Of a stretch of 64,000 nucleotides of DNA, positions 28,596-50,418 are shown one piece after another. Positions within the stretch are counted from its first letter, which is position 1. Each line of letters opens with the position of its first letter. This DNA comes from Albula goreensis (lineage: Eukaryota; Chordata; Actinopteri; Albuliformes; Albulidae): contig CM040746.1 of the NCBI GenBank assembly GCA_022829145.1, positions 40,928,212-40,992,211 of the forward strand. Direction: 5' to 3'. Under the pieces are notes generated by a model that was not told the DNA's origin, ran no database searches, and saw only the letters and a program-made list of their open reading frames with translations. Made by a program: the position numbers and the translations under genes.

Positions 28596-30342
28596 ATGCC
28601 CCCCCTCCCCCCCGGTCCATGTTGATTGTTAAAACATGAGAACCACAATGTATTCACTTACAGTATGAATATGGCAGGTGAACATTCTCACTGAATGCTC
28701 AGACAAACATGAACATAAAACTGCAGGTCAGTTCTGTTCTGAAGGACCCAGGGATTATAGATAGCCATTCTGTTTATTTTGTGGATATTGCTCTACACCT
28801 GTTGTGCATACTAGGAAAATGCTGTCTTTTTTAGGACATGGAAAAAAGCAAGCAGTTAGTGAAGTGTAGCTGAAGTGCTGGTATTAACAGGAAGGGGTTT
28901 CTGGGTTGGGATGGAAGTTTAATAACACATTTTCTGCTGTCAAATGTTCAAGATCCAGCCACCATTTGTTAAAGAGTACAGTGTGGGGAATAAAACATAA
29001 TGAATCAGGAAAAGTTCATCAAGGCCCCTGAGTGCAGAGATCACTGCATGAGTGTACAGTACATCACCATAATGAATTTCAGACAGAAATGTAGCTTGAA
29101 CACGTTTTTTTCTTGGTCTCAATGGAACAAGCAAGATTTGTTACATAAATGAAAAGCACTATTTCAATTTAGCAAGTTAGATGTTAATTGTAGGACAATT
29201 AAAAATGTACACAAATAAGGTGACCTGGACATCTAACTTCATGCCAAAAATCATCCATTTTTATTTCATACTTGAGACGACTGTCTGAGAAAAAAGGGCA
29301 AGGCTTTACTTGAAGTTGGTCTAATCTAAGGTTTAAACACTAAATATAGTTCCTAAGAAAGAGTTGCCCTGTTTGTTCATTTCAATCAGTTCCACTGGAG
29401 TGTTGTGCAGATCCAAAAGCTGCTCTAAAAGTCTCTTTGGTTGATTTAAATGAATAATCTGTGCTCATTATCACAAAAAACTAACATCACCACATGCAAA
29501 AGTGCGTTCTGTGAGGGACACACTCAGGCGCTGAGGCGAGAGCTAACGGATGGGCTAGTGCTCTTGCAGCAACACAGCCACACTGATGACCAAGTCAATG
29601 TTAGCAACAGGAAGTTCTGCTATAATTAATGCAATTTGCTGTGTAATACCTCAACGTGTAACACTTTGAATATGGCACACATTCCTAGTGTTTGTTAATT
29701 TGATAATTTAATAAATGCATTTTTTCATCAATAAGGATCTTTGCTTCCTTATAAATCTGCAAGTGATTAAAGACTGGGAGCCTTAATGTCTTTTTTTAAT
29801 TTTAAAAATCATGTCTTTGCTCTGTCATCATCCGCATGAATATGATTCAGTTTCATTGTACTGCAGTGATTTCAGTGTGGGTTTATACAATGAGACCGCA
29901 CTGCCCAGAAGTATGCACACAAACATTTGAGTCCATCTTCAGGAAGACACTGAAGACGTCTTTCACTCCCCACAAAAATCCAACATTTTGAGTGAAAAAA
30001 ACTTTGAAGTGGCTGGCAGACAGAGTCAGCAGAAATCATAAATCACCACGGCTGGTCATCTCTTCCAGTACAGACGTCTCGTGTGTGGAATCTCAGAAAG
30101 AGTCCAGTTATTTTTACTGGAAAGTAACTTTACTCTATATCTTTGTGATTTATGTCAACTTTTATGGTTGAGAGTGCAGAGCTGTGCTTTTTTTACAGTG
30201 AAGGCCAAAACCAATTTTTATTTTCCCCCCAAATGATATTTAGTGTCGTTTATTCTGAAAACATGAAAGGAGTCACCAAATGCACAGAAGAACGGTAGCT
30301 GAGACCCACCAAGCGCAGCTGGCAGTCATCACTCCAGGATCG
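28596..30342. other. Gene-free stretch
   Basis: AT-rich sequence with no supportable gene or repeat family. Confidence 0.45.
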
Positions 30343-30702
30343 GTGAATGAGGAGAGCCAGGTGAATGAGGACAGCCAGGTGAATGAGGAGACTCAGGTGA
30401 ATGAGGAGAGCCAGGTGAGTGAGGAGAGCCAGGTGATTGAGGAGAGCCAGGTGAATGAGGAGACTCAGGTGAATGAGGAGAGCCAGGTGAATGAGGAGAC
30501 TCAGGTGAATGAGGAGAGCCAGGTGAATGAGGAGAGCCAGGTGAATGAGGAGACTCAGGTGAATGAGGAGAGCCAGGTGAATGAGGAGACTCAGGTGAAT
30601 GAGGAGAGCCAGGTGAATGAGGAGAGCCAGGTGAATGAGGAGAGCCAGGTGAATGAGGAGACTCAGGTGAATGAGGAGAGCCAGGTGTTGAGGACAGCCA
30701 GG
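30343..30702. repeat. 18-bp minisatellite with 36-bp higher order, about 20 copies
   Basis: Eighteen-base units GTGAATGAGGAGAGCCAG and GTGAATGAGGAGACTCAG are interleaved, often alternating, so part of the array has a 36-bp period. Frames on both strands (up to 183 codons, with VNEESQ-type repeats) are artefacts of a unit divisible by three. Their flanks match nothing I know. Confidence 0.96.
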
Positions 30703-31228
30703 TGTCCATGCCTTCACGGCCCTCAGCAGCGCACCCCAACTCAAATGGTAAATGTAATTCCTACTAGTGTTCAACGACAAACTTTCATATCCGATTTTAA
30801 ATTAAACAGTTACACGGATGCACAGACATGAGTAAAACAGCCACATAAATGGCAAGTAAAAATCCAAGTCACATGGCTTTGTCATACATGCGAGTGATCT
30901 CACATCACAGAGATTGTTTGAAATTTAAGATTTTCTTATTTATTTATTATTTAAGTTAGTATTTGAGGAAAGCAGTTTGACTACCACTTTTGTAGTGCCA
31001 TGAAAATATAGTTCATCGTGTTCCCTCTAAGCATGCCAAAGGTCAAAGCAGATAGTCAGACGAAAGGCAGCACAGACTTTAGTTATGCTTTTTATTGCCA
31101 GTTCCAGTATGTGTCATCCCACTGACTGACATTTGCCTTTCCCGTTTAGTGCTGAAATGTAAGAAATACAAGCGGAGAAAGTATCTATAAAAATTTGGCG
31201 GGGATACCTTTCTTTTATATAGCTGTGA

Positions 31229-38860: not shown

Positions 38861-41457
38861 ATGGCGACAGAAGGGTGTAGAAGAGTAGTTTCTACTTCGT
38901 CTCAGCTTGGTCTGCTTTCCACAATGAACACCTTCAGAGGACTTGTTGTCATATTCTTGCTTTTGGGACTGTCATGTGTGTCTGTAGTCCGTGGGGATAT
39001 CACAGACGGCAACAGTGAGCACTTAAAACGGGAACATTCGCTCATGAAACCCTATCAAGGTAAGTGGAGCTTTCAGACCGGGGTCGACAACTTTCAGCGG
39101 ATACTCCTCCGCTAATGCGGACTGTCAGGCGGTGTGTCCCACGTAACCACCCACCTGAATGTGTCACTCACCTGCACATAAAACTTTTATTTTCTGAACA
39201 TTATGTTGGAGTACGTAGAATGCTGTCTGACCTGTTTACAACGAAAAGGAAACTTCAACCCTTTAATGTTAGTTGTGTTTGTTGGTTTGATGAAGCAAGA
39301 CAGGGGGAGTAACAGCAATTAGGTGTTACTGATTCTACTAATGTTACTAATGATCACCCCATTCCGTGTGGAGTAAGTAACTGACACACAGGTTAACTGG
39401 TGATAAGTTAACTGCAGCTATGTACGGAAGCATCTCTCTAGCTGGGGCTGGGTAGATTTTGCTTGACGAATCTATGTGCAGTCACTTATGTGTCTCGTTC
39501 ATTTGTAACAATAACTCAGTTCCGATAGTATTGAGAAGAAGTCACAGACAAGATAGAGTCTCCTGTGAGAGGCTTTTTGAAGCATTTCCTGTTACAGTAG
39601 ATCTATGAGCTGAAGGCTTTTCGTTTTAGGATCCCAGGTGACTCTCAATCGCATAGGGACCTGTTCCTCGGCGTGAAAGACCTAATTAATGTTACATTAC
39701 ATTTTGAAAAGCCAGCACCATATTTTGCAGGCGTAGGAACAAGTTCGTCGAGCCAGTGGGACTTCTGGGGTAGTACTCTGTTGACCAGCCAGTACATTCG
39801 CCTGACACCTGACGAGCGCAGCAAACAGGGATCGGTATGGAACACAGTGGTGAGTGATGTGTTTTAGAGAAACGCATTCCTCAGTTATAAAAGTGCATGT
39901 TTATCACTTTATTGAGAGGTTAAGTTTGAATAATTACACCCTCTATATTGGTGCCAAACAAATTTATTAACCACTCCATCTCTTTTGTCCCTCCTAATGC
40001 TTCGTAACTCCGTCACATAGCAGGAAGTAAAAGTAGTGATGTAAACAAATTGACCTACGGCATTCTGGATTAGCACCAACGCCTGGGCATGTTTAAAGCG
40101 TCCTAAATCTCCCTGTGAAGTCCCAATAGAGAAAGAATTGAGTCACCATGGAGGGAGAATTATTCACTTATAACTTCAAACTGGAAAAGGAAAAGTATCT
40201 GTGAATGACTTTTTTTTATTATTATGCAGTACCATAAATCCAATTAAATCTGGTTAAAGTCTGTCAGCCCCCAACTGCTGATACACCACATGCAAAATTT
40301 AATCAATCCCTGCCGGATCCTTTGTGCCCCGGAGGTGACGGTGGTTAGCACTTTTTGAGGTGATCTGATTGTGTTGTGTTTGCAGCCTTGCTTTCTCAAA
40401 GACTGGGAGATGCACGTCCAGTTCAAAGTGCATGGCTCAGGAAAGAAGAATCTCCATGGAGACGGCTTGGCCATTTGGTACACAAGAGAAAGACTGCAGC
40501 CTGGTAATCACTCGACATGTTTACTTTACATGCCATACGTATGTGTGCGGTAGGTCATCTTTATGGAATATATCTCAAGTTTTTTTCACTTAACAATCCA
40601 CCTGTTAATTCAAAGAACCGTTTGCGAAGTTGTTATTGAATCTTCAACTTAAGACATGTTGATTCTGATCTTCCATGGATTTCTGACCGAATGAAACCCT
40701 CTTTACCTCTGCTCAGGGCCTGTCTTTGGAAACCAAGACCACTTTGTCGGCCTGGCGGTTTTTGTGGATACGTTCCGTAATGACCTCCACGGGATGGACG
40801 TAAGTGCTTGAGTGGCGAGACTCACGGTGCTCTCTCTCTGCAGGCCCAGTGTTCGGCAGCACGGCCAGCTTCCATGGGCTGGCCATTTTTATAGACACGT
40901 ATCCTAATGATGAGGCTTCTGACGTGAGTTGACTGGCTGAATTTTCCTTCTTTTCATCCTGTCTTTGTGTGTGGGGCTTTGTCCTCTCAGTGGATCCATT
41001 TTCCGTTGGTCTGTGTTGGTCTGTAGTACTCCCATGTACATGTGGGCATATGGCAGATCACATGTTCATATCTGGAGCGACACGTATCTGGCTTAAGGAT
41101 GCAATGGTAGTGCCTGAGGAGAATGATGTCCACTCCTCTCCTCTTCCACCCTCCATGGCATAAAAGGGAAATGTCGAATCCACTGAGTTGAGCTTGAGAT
41201 CTGCCTCAGATTCTCCCACCTGTTTGACCTGTTCTGCGCACTCTGCATAGCACAGGAGCTTTAGCGTCTCTTAGGCTCGCACTGAGCTCAGCGTCTCCAG
41301 CTTGTCAGTGTGTTGTGTGGAGAGTAAAGCTCTACGTGGCACGCTTTGCTTGCACTAGCCCTGCGCTAGCCCTGCATTAGCTTGCAGCCCATCTGCTCAT
41401 CTCACCTCTCTGCTGAAGCACCTTAGCTGGACACATGTCTGGGATTTCAAAAATGAG

Positions 41458-41492
<35 letters not shown>

Positions 41493-44400
41493 AACAGCAT
41501 CTACTCCCCATGTTTTACTCCTCCATGTTAAACACATTAAAAATCCAAATTTGTGAAGAGTTGAAAGGATGAAAAGACCAATGGATTGATTGTTTATTTC
41601 ATTGAAAACCTGAAAGAGTTTCTTAACATTTCAGAAACAAAAAAACCAAGAGATATTTTATGTCAGCATTAGAGCTGCAATGATTAGGCGATGAATTGAT
41701 CAGTCGATTGAAAGAAAATTAATCGGCAACAAATGTGATTGTTCTGTGTTGTCTAATGTGAGAATTTGTTGCTTTTTTTGGTCTTACATTATAGTAAATT
41801 TAATATTTCGGGGTTTTGGACTGTTGGTCAGACAGAACAAGACATTTAATAATGTCACCTTGTGCTCTAGGTCTAGGAAACTGTAATGGGCATTTTTCAC
41901 TTTTTTCTGATGTTTTTATACACCACACAATTAACCGATTAATTGATGGAATAATTGACAGATTAATTGATAATGAAAGTAGTTGTTAGATGCAGCCCTA
42001 GTCAGTATAATGTCTTAATGGATTTGCTAATTATAATAGCTACTAAGTAAAATTTTTTATCTCTAAATAGGTTGTGAAATGGAAAATGTCGGTTAATTTG
42101 TAATGATAATGTAATTATAACTTGCTAATGAATAAAGTGTTGAAATTTATGTCTCCCTTTAATTGTAATACCTTTGTCCTTTTAATTTCATAGCTTTGGT
42201 TAGTGTACTCATTGTGACTGTGTGAATGTAATGTAATGTAATGGTCTACTTCCTATATCAGTCTGGACAGAGTTAGTCTCCTTAAGCATAAGCCCTGCCA
42301 GTCGCTGTGCTGCTTTGTGTGACAGTAGTAGTTTTCCCAAAGCTCACTGTGATGAATCTCTGTGAATAAGAGGAGAAAAAATGAGGAGAGTTTTTTTATT
42401 TGCATTTGTTCATAGAAACTGAATTGTGTGACCTTAAAATAGTTAGTTGGGTACTGTTTTAGTGGATCCAGAACGACTGAACATCTGAAATGTGGTTTTC
42501 TGTACCTGTTTCTGGTCTGAGGCTGTCATGGTGATATAAATAGGTAATAGTCATACTTAATGACAAACCCACATACTAACTGGCCTCTTCATTATTATCC
42601 TAAGCATGGCACACTGTGTGCTCTGCATTCCACTGTGTGCCAAATCTGCTACCACTTGGCATGTTGTTTTAATGTTCATTTATGTCCTCTATAAAAGGTC
42701 AGTGCCTCACACTTGTTTGGCTCAGTGTGGTTCATCAACAGTATCGCTGCCTCACATTGATGTTTTCCCAGATAAAGTAGATTAAAAACTGTTGAGTTTG
42801 AAATGTAATCTGTCTCCTCATAAAATATAGTGCATTGACTTGGTTTTGTCTTTTCTCCCTGCAGTCTTGATTTGCATAGTGTGTATCGATGTCATTTAAA
42901 GTGGCAGTCTTGGTGTTCTTGCCAAAGAGGCAGTGTGTATCCAGGTTTTCATTCCAGAAAATGAACGCTACTGTAATTATTTCAGTCACTCTTTCACCCA
43001 TGTGTGTGTCAGTCTGTAAAGCAGAAAGGGAGCAGCAGTTGTTATAAAACCAAGCGTGCATGTTAAACTGGGGGAAAAAACAATAAAACCCCAGCCCCCC
43101 ATGGCACTCAGTTTGAGACCCCTGACAGAGGTGTTACCTGTTCCCAGCGCTGAGAGCTGCTGCTGGCGGGTGACTGGCTGCAGACAGACACACTGAGCCG
43201 TGAGGTCTCTGTCCTGCAGACAGACACGCTGAGTGCTGAGGTCTTTCTCTGTCCTGCAGACAGACACGCTGAGCGCTGAGGTCTCTCTGTCCTGCAGACA
43301 GACACGCTGAGCGCTGATCTCTCTCTCTGTCCTGCAGACAGACACGCTGAGCGCTGAGGTCTCTCTGTCCTGCAGACAGACACGCTGAGCGCTGATCTCT
43401 CTCTGTCCTGCAGACAGACACGCTGAGCGCTGAGGTCTCTCTGTCCTGCAGACAGACACGCTGAGTGCTGAGGTCTCTCTGTCCTGCAGACAGACACGCT
43501 GAGCGCTGATCTCTCTCTCTGTCCTGCAGACAGACACGCTGAGCGCTGATCTCTCTCTCTGTCCTGCAGACAGACACACTGAGTGCTGAGGTCTCTCTGT
43601 CCTGCAGATAGACACACTGAGTGCTGAGGTCTCTCTGTCCTGCAGACAGACACACTGAGCGCTGATCTCTCTCTCTGTCCTGCAGACAGACACACTGAGT
43701 GCTGAGGTCTCTGTCCTGCAGACAGACACACTGAGTGCTGAGGTCTCTCTGTCCTGCAGACAGACACGCTGAGCGCTGATCTCTCTCTGTCCTGCAGACA
43801 GACACGCTGAGCGCTGATCTCTCTCTCTGTCCTGCAGACAGACACACTGAGTGCTGAGGTCTCTCTGTCCTGCAGATAGACACACTGAGTGCTGAGGTCT
43901 CTCTGTCCTGCAGACAGACACACTGAGCGCTGATCTCTCTCTCTGTCCTGCAGACAGACACACTGAGTGCTGAGGTCTCTCTGTCCTGCAGACAGACACG
44001 CTGAGCGCTGATCTCTCTCTCTGTCCTGCAGACAGACACGCTGAGCGCTGATCTCTCTCTCTGTCCTGCAGCGCTCCTTCCCTTACATCTCTGCCATGAT
44101 CAGCAACGGCTCCCTGCCCTATGACCACGGCAAGGACGGCCGTCCGACCGAGCTGGGGGGCTGCTCCGCCGAGATCAGGAACAAAGACCACGACACGTAC
44201 CTGGCCATTCGCTACTCCAAGGGCCGGCTCACGGTACGTGGAACGTTCTCACTTGGAGGGGATTCTGGGGTGCGCCTCTCCACACTGTCATGTGACTTCA
44301 CTCATTTCAGCGCTAACACATCATCATAACATGGGTAAAAGGTGATGTAAAGGCAAAGATTTCTGCTGTTGCCAGAGGTCCTGCCATTGCCTGGTGACTC

Positions 44401-45643
44401 CTTCACTCTGTATAGCAAACAGCCAGTGAATCTGCTTTGACATCTTTTAGCAGTCCAGTCATAATGAGGTTTTATTATTCTGCCTGGGTCACCTGCTTTT
44501 CTAGTTGTGAAATCACATTCACTACTCTCAGTCATTTCCTTCTTTAAGTGGTCAACTCTGTTTTGGACAGATTATGGTCGACATCGATGACCATAATGAG
44601 TGGAAGGAATGCATTGATATTGGCGGCGTCCGCCTGCCTACAGGATACTACTTTGGAGCTTCATCTGCCACGGGGGACCTCTCTGGTACGTGAGCTACAG
44701 TCCTGAGCAAGCCCAGCCCCAGCCATTGTGCGTGTGCGTGCCTGTCCACACACGCATCTGTGCATGTTTGTCAAAGTTGTTCCCAAACACCTTTTTAATG
44801 AACTTTGATGTGTTTCCCCCTCCCAGATAACCATGACATCATCTCAATGAAGATGTACCAGCTGATGGTGGAGCACACGCCAGAGGAAGACAATCTGGAC
44901 TGGACTAAGATCGAGCCGAGCGTCAGCCTGCTTAAGTCCCCCAAAGGTACCCCACTCTTACTGCTCATGCTGCTGCCCTGATCACATTTCTGTTTTTAAT
45001 GTTGTCATAGAGAATATTTTAATGCAGTTTCTAATATAAATCCATATGGTGTTTTCAGATTTCATCCATACGAAAGAAAAAAAGTGAGATCCCCATGATC
45101 CACTCCTATAAATTATAAACAAAAACGAAAATGTAATTCTGCAGGTCTGAGAGGCAGCTGAAGTAAATATGGGTTATCTGTTGTTTTAAGTTTCAGTGTG
45201 TGTCTCTTGAAAAAGGACAAAACAGGAAGGATAGACAAGGTCAGAGCAGTATGTGTAATAGTATGTAGATAACTGTAAAGCAAAAAGACAGCCAGGGAAG
45301 ATGATTACAGTAAAAGTACATTTTCATTTTATTATGAATTAGGATTATTTATGTATTTTTGTGCGGTATTTTGGGGTCTGCAGTTCTGTTTTTTTTTTGA
45401 CAGTTTTTTTTCTTTCCTTTAATCCTTTCCCTGCTTTTCTCTCTAACACCCCCCTCCCCTTTGGTCTTTATCCCTACTGTAGATAACATTGATGACCCAA
45501 CAGGTAACTTCCGCAGCACTCCTCTCACTGGTTGGAAAGTCTTCCTGCTTCTGCTGTGTGCCCTCCTGGGAATTGTAGTCTGTGCTGTGGTGGGGGCTGT
45601 GGTCTTCCAGAAGAGGCAGGAGAGAAACAAGAGGTTCTACTAG
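38861..45643 (+). CDS. lman2: LMAN2 (VIP36), L-type cargo lectin
   Basis: A single-pass type I membrane lectin that binds high-mannose glycans on cargo cycling between ER, ERGIC and cis-Golgi. Exons: 38861-39059, 39731-39849, 40386-40503, then 40717-40799 or 40844-40923, then 44072-44233, 44571-44685, 44827-44946 and 45483-45643. All introns are GT-AG and phases agree. The product is 357 residues with the downstream fourth exon or 358 with the upstream one (human is 356). The start sits in a strong context (aaaATGG). A signal peptide ends near residue 45, before DITDGNSEHLKREHS. Sugar and calcium residues expected for VIP36 are present: Asp132 (HGDG), Asp163 and Asn167 (DTYPN), His191, Asp194. 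Asn184 (NGS) is a glycosylation site. A transmembrane helix is followed by the tail KRQERNKRFY, which marks LMAN2 rather than LMAN2L. Confidence 0.97.
40717..40799 (+). other. lman2: LMAN2 exon 4a, alternative carbohydrate-loop exon (LMAN2L-like)
   Basis: This 83-nt exon is bounded by ctctgctcag and gtaagt, enters in phase 1 and leaves in phase 0, exactly like exon 4b. It encodes GPVFGNQDHFVGLAVF and then VDTFRND. Compared with 4b it keeps the loop Asp163 and Asn167 but has Phe-Arg where 4b has Tyr-Pro. Its FVGL and VFVDT words recall the paralogue LMAN2L (VIPL). Only one of 4a and 4b can be used in a given in-frame transcript. Reading frame, splice sites and homology are all intact, so it does not look like a decayed copy. 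Confidence 0.85.
40844..40923 (+). other. lman2: LMAN2 exon 4b, canonical carbohydrate-loop exon
   Basis: This 80-nt exon follows ctctctctgcag and ends before gtgagt. It encodes GPVFGSTASFHGLAIF then IDTYPND, the form seen in human VIP36 (HGLAIF-DTYPND). Only 44 nt (40,800-40,843) separate it from exon 4a, which is below the usual minimum for a vertebrate intron. Confidence 0.92.
41461..41488. repeat. Poly(T), 28 nt, in LMAN2 intron
   Basis: Pure T run in the intron after exon 4b. No adjoining SINE body is recognised. Confidence 0.95.
41670..42000. mobile_element. hAT-type MITE, 331 bp, in LMAN2 intron
   Basis: The element starts TAGAGCTGCA and ends TGCAGCCCTA, an inverted repeat with one mismatch. 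It is flanked by near-identical 8-bp duplications, gtcagcat (41,662-41,669) and gtcagtat (42,001-42,008). Subterminal words gattaattgata / aattgatcagtcgatt and AATTAACCGATTAATTG match a widespread fish repeat type that I recall by its ...GATTAATCGGTTAATTG core. No transposase frame. The 8-bp duplication supports the hAT superfamily. Confidence 0.85.
43180..44071. repeat. 36-40-bp minisatellite carrying the LMAN2 exon 5 splice acceptor
   Basis: About 23 tandem units of 36, 38 or 40 bp, each ending CTCTCTCTGTCCTGCAG or a close variant and then starting ACAGACAC(G/A)CTGAG. The last unit's CTGTCCTGCAG is the genuine 3' splice site of exon 5 (44,072). The same polypyrimidine-CAG string therefore occurs 22 times upstream in the intron. 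Long minus-strand frames (271-401 codons) are repeat artefacts. Confidence 0.96.
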
Positions 45644-47890: not shown

Positions 47891-50418
47891 ATGGTGGCCG
47901 TCAAAATGCAGTTTAGCGTGTTTTCTGTTTTGTTGTTTAACGTTTTTTACAATTTGACATCCGCGTTATATTTCCACATAGGAGAGACAGAGAAGAAATG
48001 CTTCATAGAAGAGATTCCGGACGAAACCATGATCATAGGTAATGTTCTCAATTTCCACTGCATGTAACTTGCTGGCTGACGTCGTTAGCTAGCCAGGTCA
48101 GTCGGGAAGGCAATCGGCTAACTAGTTAGCTTGCTAGCTAACTTTATGTATAAAATGTTGTAGCGCTTGGTTGGCAACGTAAAATGTTTCAAAAGCTTGT
48201 ACTAGATCGTGTATTATGTAAAGTCTATTGCTGATCGATCGATAGCTCTGTAAAATAAAAATAAAAAATCAAATTGATTGTACTAGTCGAACCCAACTGC
48301 AGGCTAGCCAGCACTGCTATGATGCTACTGTACTAGCCTTTTCTTAGCTTTAGAGCGATTACATGTTCAACCTGCAACTTCTGCCTTTGTGTGGCAGCAA
48401 GAAATAGTGATTGCATTCGTTAGCTCGATTTCCCCGAACCATCGTGCTGGGTATGGAGTTATCTTGCCAGTTGCAGGTGTTAGTCACAACTTCACCCTCC
48501 ATGGAAGGCCGGGCCATCCCAGCTCACTATCCTTACTTGTATTAGGCACCTTAGCTTGCCTTGCAGTGAGGTCGTGATGCTGTCATGACATTTTGTAGTC
48601 AAATATGTGGGAAAAAACATAGTATCAGATGGAACGTTAGTGAGGATCACCTTATGGCCATACATTTCCGTATACCCTTTTTGTTTTTTTTTTTTTTTTT
48701 GCTTGCTTTGATAAGTTGTTCCTTCGCACCACAAAAGTAGACGAGCACTTCCTGTAGGCATGACGTCTGAGACAACCTAGCTATGCAAATATGTACGACA
48801 GTGTGTGCAGTTAATGAAATGATTCAAATTTAAATGTATTTCAAATACTACTCGGGGGATGTTAGACCAGTTCAGCAACGTCCATTTGTCGAGTAGGCCG
48901 CAGGCAAGCATTTACTGCCAGACAGTAGACGTTTTATTGTACAGTGTTTTTGTGCCCATATGAAGCTTGTCTCTCTGAGTATGCTTATAATCCGTGCTGC
49001 GAGTATGTCAGTTATTTGTGTACATTTTTGGGTGAGAAGCGCGATGTGACATCTGCAAACTCTTCGCTCTTCGTGGATTGATTTTGTCTGATATTTCATA
49101 ATCCATTTGTCTTAAATCCAGGGAACTATCGCACGCAGTTATATGACAAACAGAAGGAGGAATACCTGCCTGCCACCCAAGGGCTTGGAATGTTTGTTGA
49201 AGTGAAAGATCCCGATGAGAAGGTATGCTGCTGGGATTTCATCACTTCTCCACACAGCCCATCCCTGGTCATGAATGTGATGTCCAGGTTTCTGTCAGCT
49301 GAATGCATTCCAACAAGTGAAGTACATTTCCTTTCCTAGATACGGAATATTGATTTTGGTACGTTTGTGTTTGTCCCTGTCAGGTGATTCTGTCTCGTCA
49401 GTACGGCTCTGAGGGCCGCTTTACCTTCACCTCTCATACCCCTGGAGAACACCAGATCTGCCTGCACTCCAACTCGTCCAAGTTTGCGCTTTTTGCTGGA
49501 GGAATGCTGGTGAGAGCGAAAGCAAACCTGGCCAGCTCAGCATGGTCCACAATAACCATGGCAACTACCTTAAAAGATCAGCTTTTTTTTTTTTTTTTTT
49601 TTGAACAGTGATCAAGAAAAAAAAAAAAAAGAATACACCATGTGATGACCTCAGGAGGATTTGCCCAATATTTGTCTGGTCTATAGTATTCTTGCAGAGT
49701 TCTAGGCAGGGTTTGTCTGCATTCTTATTCCAAAAAGTGTAACTCGTGTTCCTTTTTTCAGAGGGTTCATCTGGATATTCAGGTTGGGGAGCACACCAAT
49801 AATTATGCTGAGATCGCGGCCAAAGACAAGCTGACAGAGCTGCAGCTGCGAGTGCGGCAGCTCGTTGAGCAGGTTGACCAGATCCAGAAGGAGCAGAATT
49901 ACCAGAGGGTGAACACCTTTTTCTTCTTTTTCTATATACATTATTGATTCTGAAACACAATTTTCGTTGCCGACACATAGTTGTGTTCTTGTTTTCAAAT
50001 ATTCAGCATTGAAAAGATTTTTGCTTTTAAGAAAAACAATCATAAATTCATTAACCACCATGTTAAACTTGGGCCTTGCTCAAATTTGCATACTGAACAG
50101 GAGCTTCTGCTGTATTTAGTTAGCATTTGTGTAATTTTTTTGCCCTTGTGGATGTATGAAGACAAGCATTGTAAAAGTATTTGACAGCGCGTGATTCGCA
50201 GTGCCCCCTGCTGTTGGAAAGGGGACACTCAGGGTTTGTGTGAACTGTTGGCCTTCCTTGTCTTTCAGTATCGTGAGGAGCGCTTCAGGCAGACCAGCGA
50301 GAGCACCAACCAGAGAGTCCTGTGGTGGTCCATCGTGCAGACCCTCATCCTCGTGGCCATCGGCTTCTGGCAGATGAGGCACCTCAAGAGCTTCTTTGAG
50401 GCCAAGAAGCTCGTCTAG
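47891..50418 (+). CDS. tmed9: TMED9, p24 family cargo receptor
   Basis: A p24-alpha member of COPI/COPII vesicle coats that cycles between ER and Golgi and helps sort cargo such as GPI-anchored proteins. Exons: 47891-48038, 49122-49222, 49384-49509, 49762-49908 and 50269-50418, giving 223 residues (human 235, the difference lying in the N-terminal leader). A signal peptide of about 25 residues is followed by [20 protein letters not shown]. The GOLD domain has its disulfide pair Cys37 and Cys109. NSS at residue 113 is a glycosylation site. A coiled-coil stretch ([20 protein letters not shown]) precedes one transmembrane helix (about 191-211). The tail FFEAKKLV carries the diphenylalanine COPII signal and the KKxx COPI retrieval signal. 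Near-identity of the luminal domain to human TMED9 separates it from TMED4 and TMED11. Confidence 0.97.
49581..49631. repeat. T-run/A-run inverted pair in TMED9 intron 3
   Basis: A poly(T) stretch of about 18 and a poly(A) stretch of about 15 lie about 15 nt apart and could form a weak AU hairpin between exons 3 and 4. Confidence 0.8.
50203..50216. promoter_or_regulatory. CTCF-like motif in TMED9 intron 4
   Basis: GTGCCCCCTGCTG resembles the CTCF core in its GCGCCCCCTGGTGG orientation. Sequence resemblance only. Confidence 0.25.

Follow-up and report, generated by a model that had tools for sequence, protein, structure and literature searches.

The analyzed DNA was a 64,000-nucleotide stretch of an Albula goreensis contig (hereafter, the window), and a complete LMAN2 (VIP36) gene is located on the plus strand of this 64-kb window. 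The coding region, from ATG to stop, occupied positions 38861..45643 (+) and was composed of eight exons, with exon 4 in two versions, 4a and 4b. In the gene model, exons 1 and 2 lay at 38861-39059 (+) and 39731-39849 (+); exon 3, at 40386..40503 (+), ended in phase 1 with the donor CTG/gtaatc; exon 5, at 44072..44233 (+), started in phase 0 and was the downstream partner common to 4a and 4b; and exons 6, 7, and 8 lay at 44571-44685 (+), 44827-44946 (+), and 45483-45643 (+), respectively. Apart from the short intron that separates 4a from 4b, the introns spanned 141-3148 nt. Translation gave a protein of 358 residues with 4a and 357 residues with 4b, both isoforms ending, through exon 8, with a C-terminal membrane span and a short tail that terminates in KRFY; the mammalian LMAN2 tail likewise ends in KRFY. 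The Pfam legume-like lectin domain (Lectin_leg-like, PF03388) was recognized in both isoforms (E values of 2e-88 and 9e-90), with bit scores of 295.9 with 4a, 300.5 with 4b, and 237.5 when exon 4 was left out. The top solved-structure match of the product was canine VIP36 (E = 4e-145), followed by the ERGIC-53 family (2e-41), and isoform 4b, which is orthologous to VIP36, showed 77% identity to the dog domain (PDB 2duo) over 244 aligned columns. The 501-bp exon 4 region was single copy in the 932-Mb genome.

Several other features were observed around these exons. Positions 43178-44071 were occupied by a minisatellite (about 23 repeats of a 38-nt unit, some of 40 nt) that ended exactly at the exon 5 acceptor of LMAN2. 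Its unit repeats this acceptor (tctctctgtcctgcag), and 22 upstream copies of TCTCTGTCCTGCAG constitute decoy acceptors; use of any of the 23 upstream CTGCAG sites in phase 0 would terminate translation within 32 codons. Four weaker matches (67-71%) to the minisatellite were found elsewhere in the genome. About 2 kb downstream of LMAN2, at approximately 47897-50418 (+), lies a gene, probably TMED9, for a cargo receptor of the p24/GOLD family (Pfam EMP24_GP25L, E = 1e-59); thus, two early-secretory cargo receptors are adjacent at this locus. In addition, a tandem repeat at about 30330-30720 was coding-like in character, both of its strands having open frames (VNEESQ and HSPGSP repeats).

We recomputed the borders of the two versions of exon 4. 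Exon 4a (GPVFGNQDHFVGLAVFVDTFRNDLHGMD) is 83 nt in length and lies at 40717..40799 (+), as indicated by translation, tblastn, and the gene model; exon 4b (GPVFGSTASFHGLAIFIDTYPNDEASD), which is the canonical VIP36 form, is 80 nt in length and lies at 40844..40923 (+), as indicated by translation, tblastn, and the gene model; and the intervening GT..AG intron of 44 nt lies at 40800..40843 (+). These coordinates, lengths, AG/GT borders, and the 44-nt gap were all as given in the original prediction, which also named the correct junction partners (40503 and 44072), and its description of both exons as running from phase 1 to phase 0, sharing a GPVFG start, and encoding DTFRND (4a) or DTYPND (4b) was confirmed from the sequence. 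Over 23 gap-free columns, 4a and 4b were equal at 14 of 23 residues and 43 of 69 bases, and residues equal to those of dog VIP36 numbered 19/23 for 4b and 15/23 for 4a. Within the window, a tblastn search with the 4b peptide recovered 4a at an E value of 3e-7, and the exon 4 segment of dog VIP36 recovered 4b at 3e-12 and 4a at 1e-8. Both strands of the window together contained 1576 candidate exons (open, AG..GT-bounded, 68-98 nt, phase 1-0); among these, 4a scored 79 against the 4b peptide and the next best scored 28, setting aside 4b itself and a shortened form of it. When the whole genome was searched with either exon (E<=10), no third copy of exon 4 was seen; both queries led to the same five kinds of places, namely 4a and 4b themselves, an LMAN1-like exon, and a single exon in either of the two LMAN2L-like genes. 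The two exons share several properties of mutually exclusive tandem exons, namely similar length, detectable homology, identical phases, intact splice sites, and usability of each exon alone. The acceptor of 4a scored higher than that of 4b (7.5 vs. 4.0), and the two donors, both with C at position -1, were equal and middling (3.3 and 3.2 of a possible 8.7); these scores are rough, since the matrices were approximate and a small indexing slip affected one weak position of the acceptor scoring. Taken together, it is virtually certain that exons 4a and 4b are real and homologous.

The reading frame remained open with either exon alone. However, the joining of 4a to 4b shifted the frame and produced a stop inside 4b, the omission of both produced a stop early in exon 5, and retention of the 44-nt intron produced a stop at its fourth codon. 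The best branch-point match in this intron was CTCAC, with the A at 40824, which is the 25th intron base and lies 20 nt before 4b; after this position the sole intron adenosine is that of the terminal AG. Weaker candidates were observed at the 12th intron base and within 4a, that is, nearer to the donor or upstream of it; thus, none of them would ease the joining of 4a to 4b. The limit below which a donor and a branch point are sterically incompatible is placed at about 50 nt in excerpted text of two reports (PMC5740500, PMC7969005). On this basis, U1 at the donor of 4a and U2 at the branch point of 4b would be unable to sit together, so that transcripts would be spliced as 3-4a-5 or 3-4b-5, and residual 4a-4b joins would be expected to be removed by nonsense-mediated decay. 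The mutual exclusion claimed in the original prediction thus gained support from the frame and from the donor-to-branch-point spacing (25 nt vs. about 50 nt), and we consider exclusive splicing of 4a and 4b to be likely. Very short human introns near 44 nt are known to splice, and the steric lock may therefore leak. We also considered an RNA structure as the switch and dropped this possibility, because the short intron, like two longer stretches, folded no better than shuffled sequences (z = +0.38, +1.48, and +1.93). A simple motif scan, made with no computed background, found CTCTCT three times in overlapping form within the 44-nt intron as well as TCTT sites, and no GCATG in the scanned stretches.

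Exclusion of this kind is established in other genes. In the alpha-tropomyosin and alpha-actinin genes, exclusive exons are enforced sterically by a branch point that is too near to the upstream donor, as is predicted for LMAN2; these differ from the LMAN2 pair in that the proteins are unrelated, the branch-point layout is another, and regulators are known. A closer parallel is offered by exons 4a and 4b of OGDH, as described in excerpts of PMC7969005, which are likewise tandem homologous exons whose donor-to-branch-point distances (25-41 nt in human OGDH, 25 nt in LMAN2) are shorter than the limit of about 50 nt, and the swap of which alters a Ca2+-linked protein property, as would be expected for LMAN2. 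The OGDH exons differ in having distant branch points, a longer intron, and a large pyrimidine tract, whereas the LMAN2 intron is 44 nt and its branch point lies 20 nt from the exon. According to the available text of PMC5740500, 57 (9%) of 629 human clusters fall under the steric limit, and 377 (60%) of the 629 have exon lengths that are not divisible by three.

To assess selection on 4a, we compared the two exons with sequences evolved neutrally from either one to the observed 4a-4b divergence (20,000 runs each way). The exons differed at 26 bases, 14 of which were third positions; dN was 0.28, and saturation precluded an estimate of dS. An open frame together with 14 or more equal residues was obtained in 0.02% of runs from 4b and 0.015% of runs from 4a (P of about 2e-4), and at least 14 third-position changes were obtained in about 0.7% and 0.6% of runs. 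Because such residue identity is rare under neutrality, these results indicated purifying selection on the encoded peptide during the greater part of the period since the duplication, and that 4a was very probably under selection for long. A recent loss of 4a use would also be compatible with these results.

We addressed the age of the pair by comparison with the paralogs. Besides LMAN2, the genome contains one LMAN1-like gene and, on contigs 4 and 1, two genes resembling LMAN2L. Exon 4 of LMAN2L occupies the same place with the same phase as that of LMAN2, and both LMAN2L exons 4 are 83 nt in length, like 4a, a resemblance that the original prediction did not mention; each LMAN2L locus yielded only a single convincing exon 4. 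Residues equal to each LMAN2L exon 4 numbered 16/23 for 4a, including N6, V15, and V17, and 14/23 for 4b, whereas 4b and dog VIP36 had in common a length of 27 residues together with S6, H11, I15, Y20, and P21. Over the 23 residues, the two LMAN2L copies differed at 1 position, 4b and dog VIP36 at 4, and 4a and 4b at 9. By parsimony and this crude clock, the duplication looks older than the fish-tetrapod split, unless 4a evolved fast, and it may be as old as the split between LMAN2 and LMAN2L. In a tree test with 23 residues and seven sequences, four topologies were compared and none of the four was rejected. The likelihood favored 4a with LMAN2L (logL = -205.12, AU = 0.71), followed by 4a with 4b and dog (-206.42, AU = 0.50), 4a outside both groups (-207.53, AU = 0.14), and a fish-only duplication after the dog split (-208.55, AU = 0.18). 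It is conceivable, though doubtful, that the exon pair predates the LMAN2/LMAN2L split, in which case an ancestral VIP gene would have spliced two sugar-pocket forms, LMAN2L would have kept the 4a type (83 nt, N-V-V), mammalian LMAN2 would show the 4b type, and LMAN2 of this fish would keep both. If so, the divergence of these paralogous cargo lectins would represent the parting of ancestral splice forms.

A further observation concerned the LMAN2L genes, both of which contained a candidate in-frame microexon of 33 nt, bounded by AG and GT, between exons 4 and 5 (minus strand; positions 1381-1413 of locus L029 and 1815-1847 of locus L030). These would encode AQEKRYTPHTQ or AQKRRYTPRTQ, equal at 8 of 11 residues, and in the protein they would fall where exon 4a or 4b of LMAN2 ends; a short motif scan of LMAN2 intron 4 revealed no counterpart. 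Human LMAN2L probably has an isoform with a similar insert at this position, and if so, the loop after the Ca2+ site would be varied by splicing in both paralogs, by different means.

From the sequence evidence, we proposed that exon 4 of LMAN2 was duplicated in tandem long ago and that the two copies, 4a and 4b, were kept by selection and are spliced as one or the other, and we assign this reading a probability of about 0.7. Among the alternatives, it is unlikely that 4a is a recently silenced relic, long functional and now unused in this fish, with 4b alone making VIP36. The dog VIP36 whose structure has been solved carries the 4b-type segment, and at least one lineage thus lacks 4a in its known protein; however, the frame, acceptor, and donor of 4a are all intact, its acceptor is the higher scoring of the two, with an equal donor, and the lectin domain score is barely lower with 4a than with 4b. 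It appears rather improbable that the pair serves mainly to set the dose of LMAN2, with the inclusion of both exons or neither shifting the frame and leading to decay. Joint inclusion, joint omission, and intron retention all stop early, as such a poison-exon control would have it, but the control would not need a lectin-like peptide to be kept, and the loop Asp, Asn, and Asp were retained with no stop in just 1.4-1.5% of the neutral runs; the short intron moreover disfavors the 4a-4b joining on which the control would draw.

Very improbable, in turn, is an origin of 4a in an LMAN2L gene, through copying or conversion, instead of by tandem duplication within LMAN2. This origin would account for the 16/23 residues and the 83-nt length that 4a shares with both LMAN2L exons 4, compared with the 14/23 residues shared with 4b; at the DNA level, however, the bases equal to the two LMAN2L exons numbered 45 and 47 of 69 for 4a and 47 and 46 of 69 for 4b, and third positions were near random in all comparisons. 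As 4a is no closer to LMAN2L than 4b is, a recent transfer from LMAN2L was not supported at the DNA level. Outside the paralogs, two scans of viral contigs (6 and 13 stretches with the pattern) and one of prokaryote contigs (103) yielded no confirmed relative, and none was expected there.

The consequence of exclusive splicing between tandemly duplicated 4a and 4b can be read against the crystal structures. As described in excerpts of PMC3912170, Tyr164 of VIP36 hydrogen-bonds Man(4), the ERGIC-53 counterpart being Phe154, and Tyr164 together with Asp261 accounts for the higher affinity of VIP36; in ERGIC-53, Asn156, which adjoins Phe154, touches mannose directly, its mutation abolishes binding, and residues 155-161 constitute Ca2+-binding loop 1. 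In our alignment, 4b encoded D-T-Y-P-N-D, as in dog VIP36, 4a encoded D-T-F-R-N-D, and rat ERGIC-53 showed D-S-F-D-N-D. Relative to 4b, 4a therefore has Phe for Tyr164 and Arg for Pro165, and its loop 1 is rewritten and one residue longer; the dog VIP36 chain contains the 4b-type segment only. Thus, the mannose-contacting Tyr164 is present with 4b and replaced with 4a by Phe, as in ERGIC-53, in a gene that is still LMAN2. Within the Ca2+/mannose loop, Asp and Asn were invariant among both isoforms, dog VIP36, and rat ERGIC-53, and the equivalent of Asp261 is encoded in a shared exon and is the same in both isoforms. Of the earlier proposal that the swap acts at the Ca2+/mannose site, the part concerning the sugar site held, given the change of Tyr164 to Phe in 4a, and the part concerning a swapped Ca2+ site did not, as the loop Asp and Asn are identical. 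Isoform 4b is the ordinary VIP36 with Tyr at position 164, and isoform 4a would be expected to keep Ca2+-dependent mannose binding but to hold the reducing-side mannose more weakly, differently, or less selectively, which would move it part of the way towards ERGIC-53. The change from Tyr to Phe loses one hydroxyl, and its effect could be small. A further point against this reading is that LMAN2L, which resembles 4a elsewhere, has Tyr at the position of Tyr164. Judged from the sequence comparison, affinity tuning through exon choice is plausible, at slightly less than even odds.

In the literature searched, we found no report of exclusive exon 4 in LMAN2, and a text search with four 4a peptide strings matched no paper. 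In the text available from PMC9830730, LMAN2 appeared only as a differentially expressed gene, and 'LMAN' was absent from the main text of the human exclusive-exon catalogs PMC5740500 and PMC9741552. The pair may already be annotated as two isoforms in fish databases.

Taken together, the sequence features suggest that 4a and 4b are very likely a real new instance of mutually exclusive exons, with a testable consequence at the ligand site. It would add a very short case (44 nt) to the exclusive exons that are enforced sterically. VIP36, VIPL (LMAN2L), and ERGIC-53 differ in the tightness and selectivity with which they bind high-mannose cargo, and the excerpted text of PMC3912170 attributes the difference between VIP36 and ERGIC-53 in part to the residues Tyr164 and Phe154. 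In this fish, a single gene appears able to supply either Tyr or Phe at residue 164 through splicing, and the pair represents a natural experiment on a residue whose role has until now been assessed from crystal structures. If the pair does predate the LMAN2/LMAN2L split, isoform 4a of this fish would be a living intermediate between VIP36 and ERGIC-53 at residue 164. If 4a is used, the choice of exon could give cells a means of setting cargo selectivity in the early secretory pathway.
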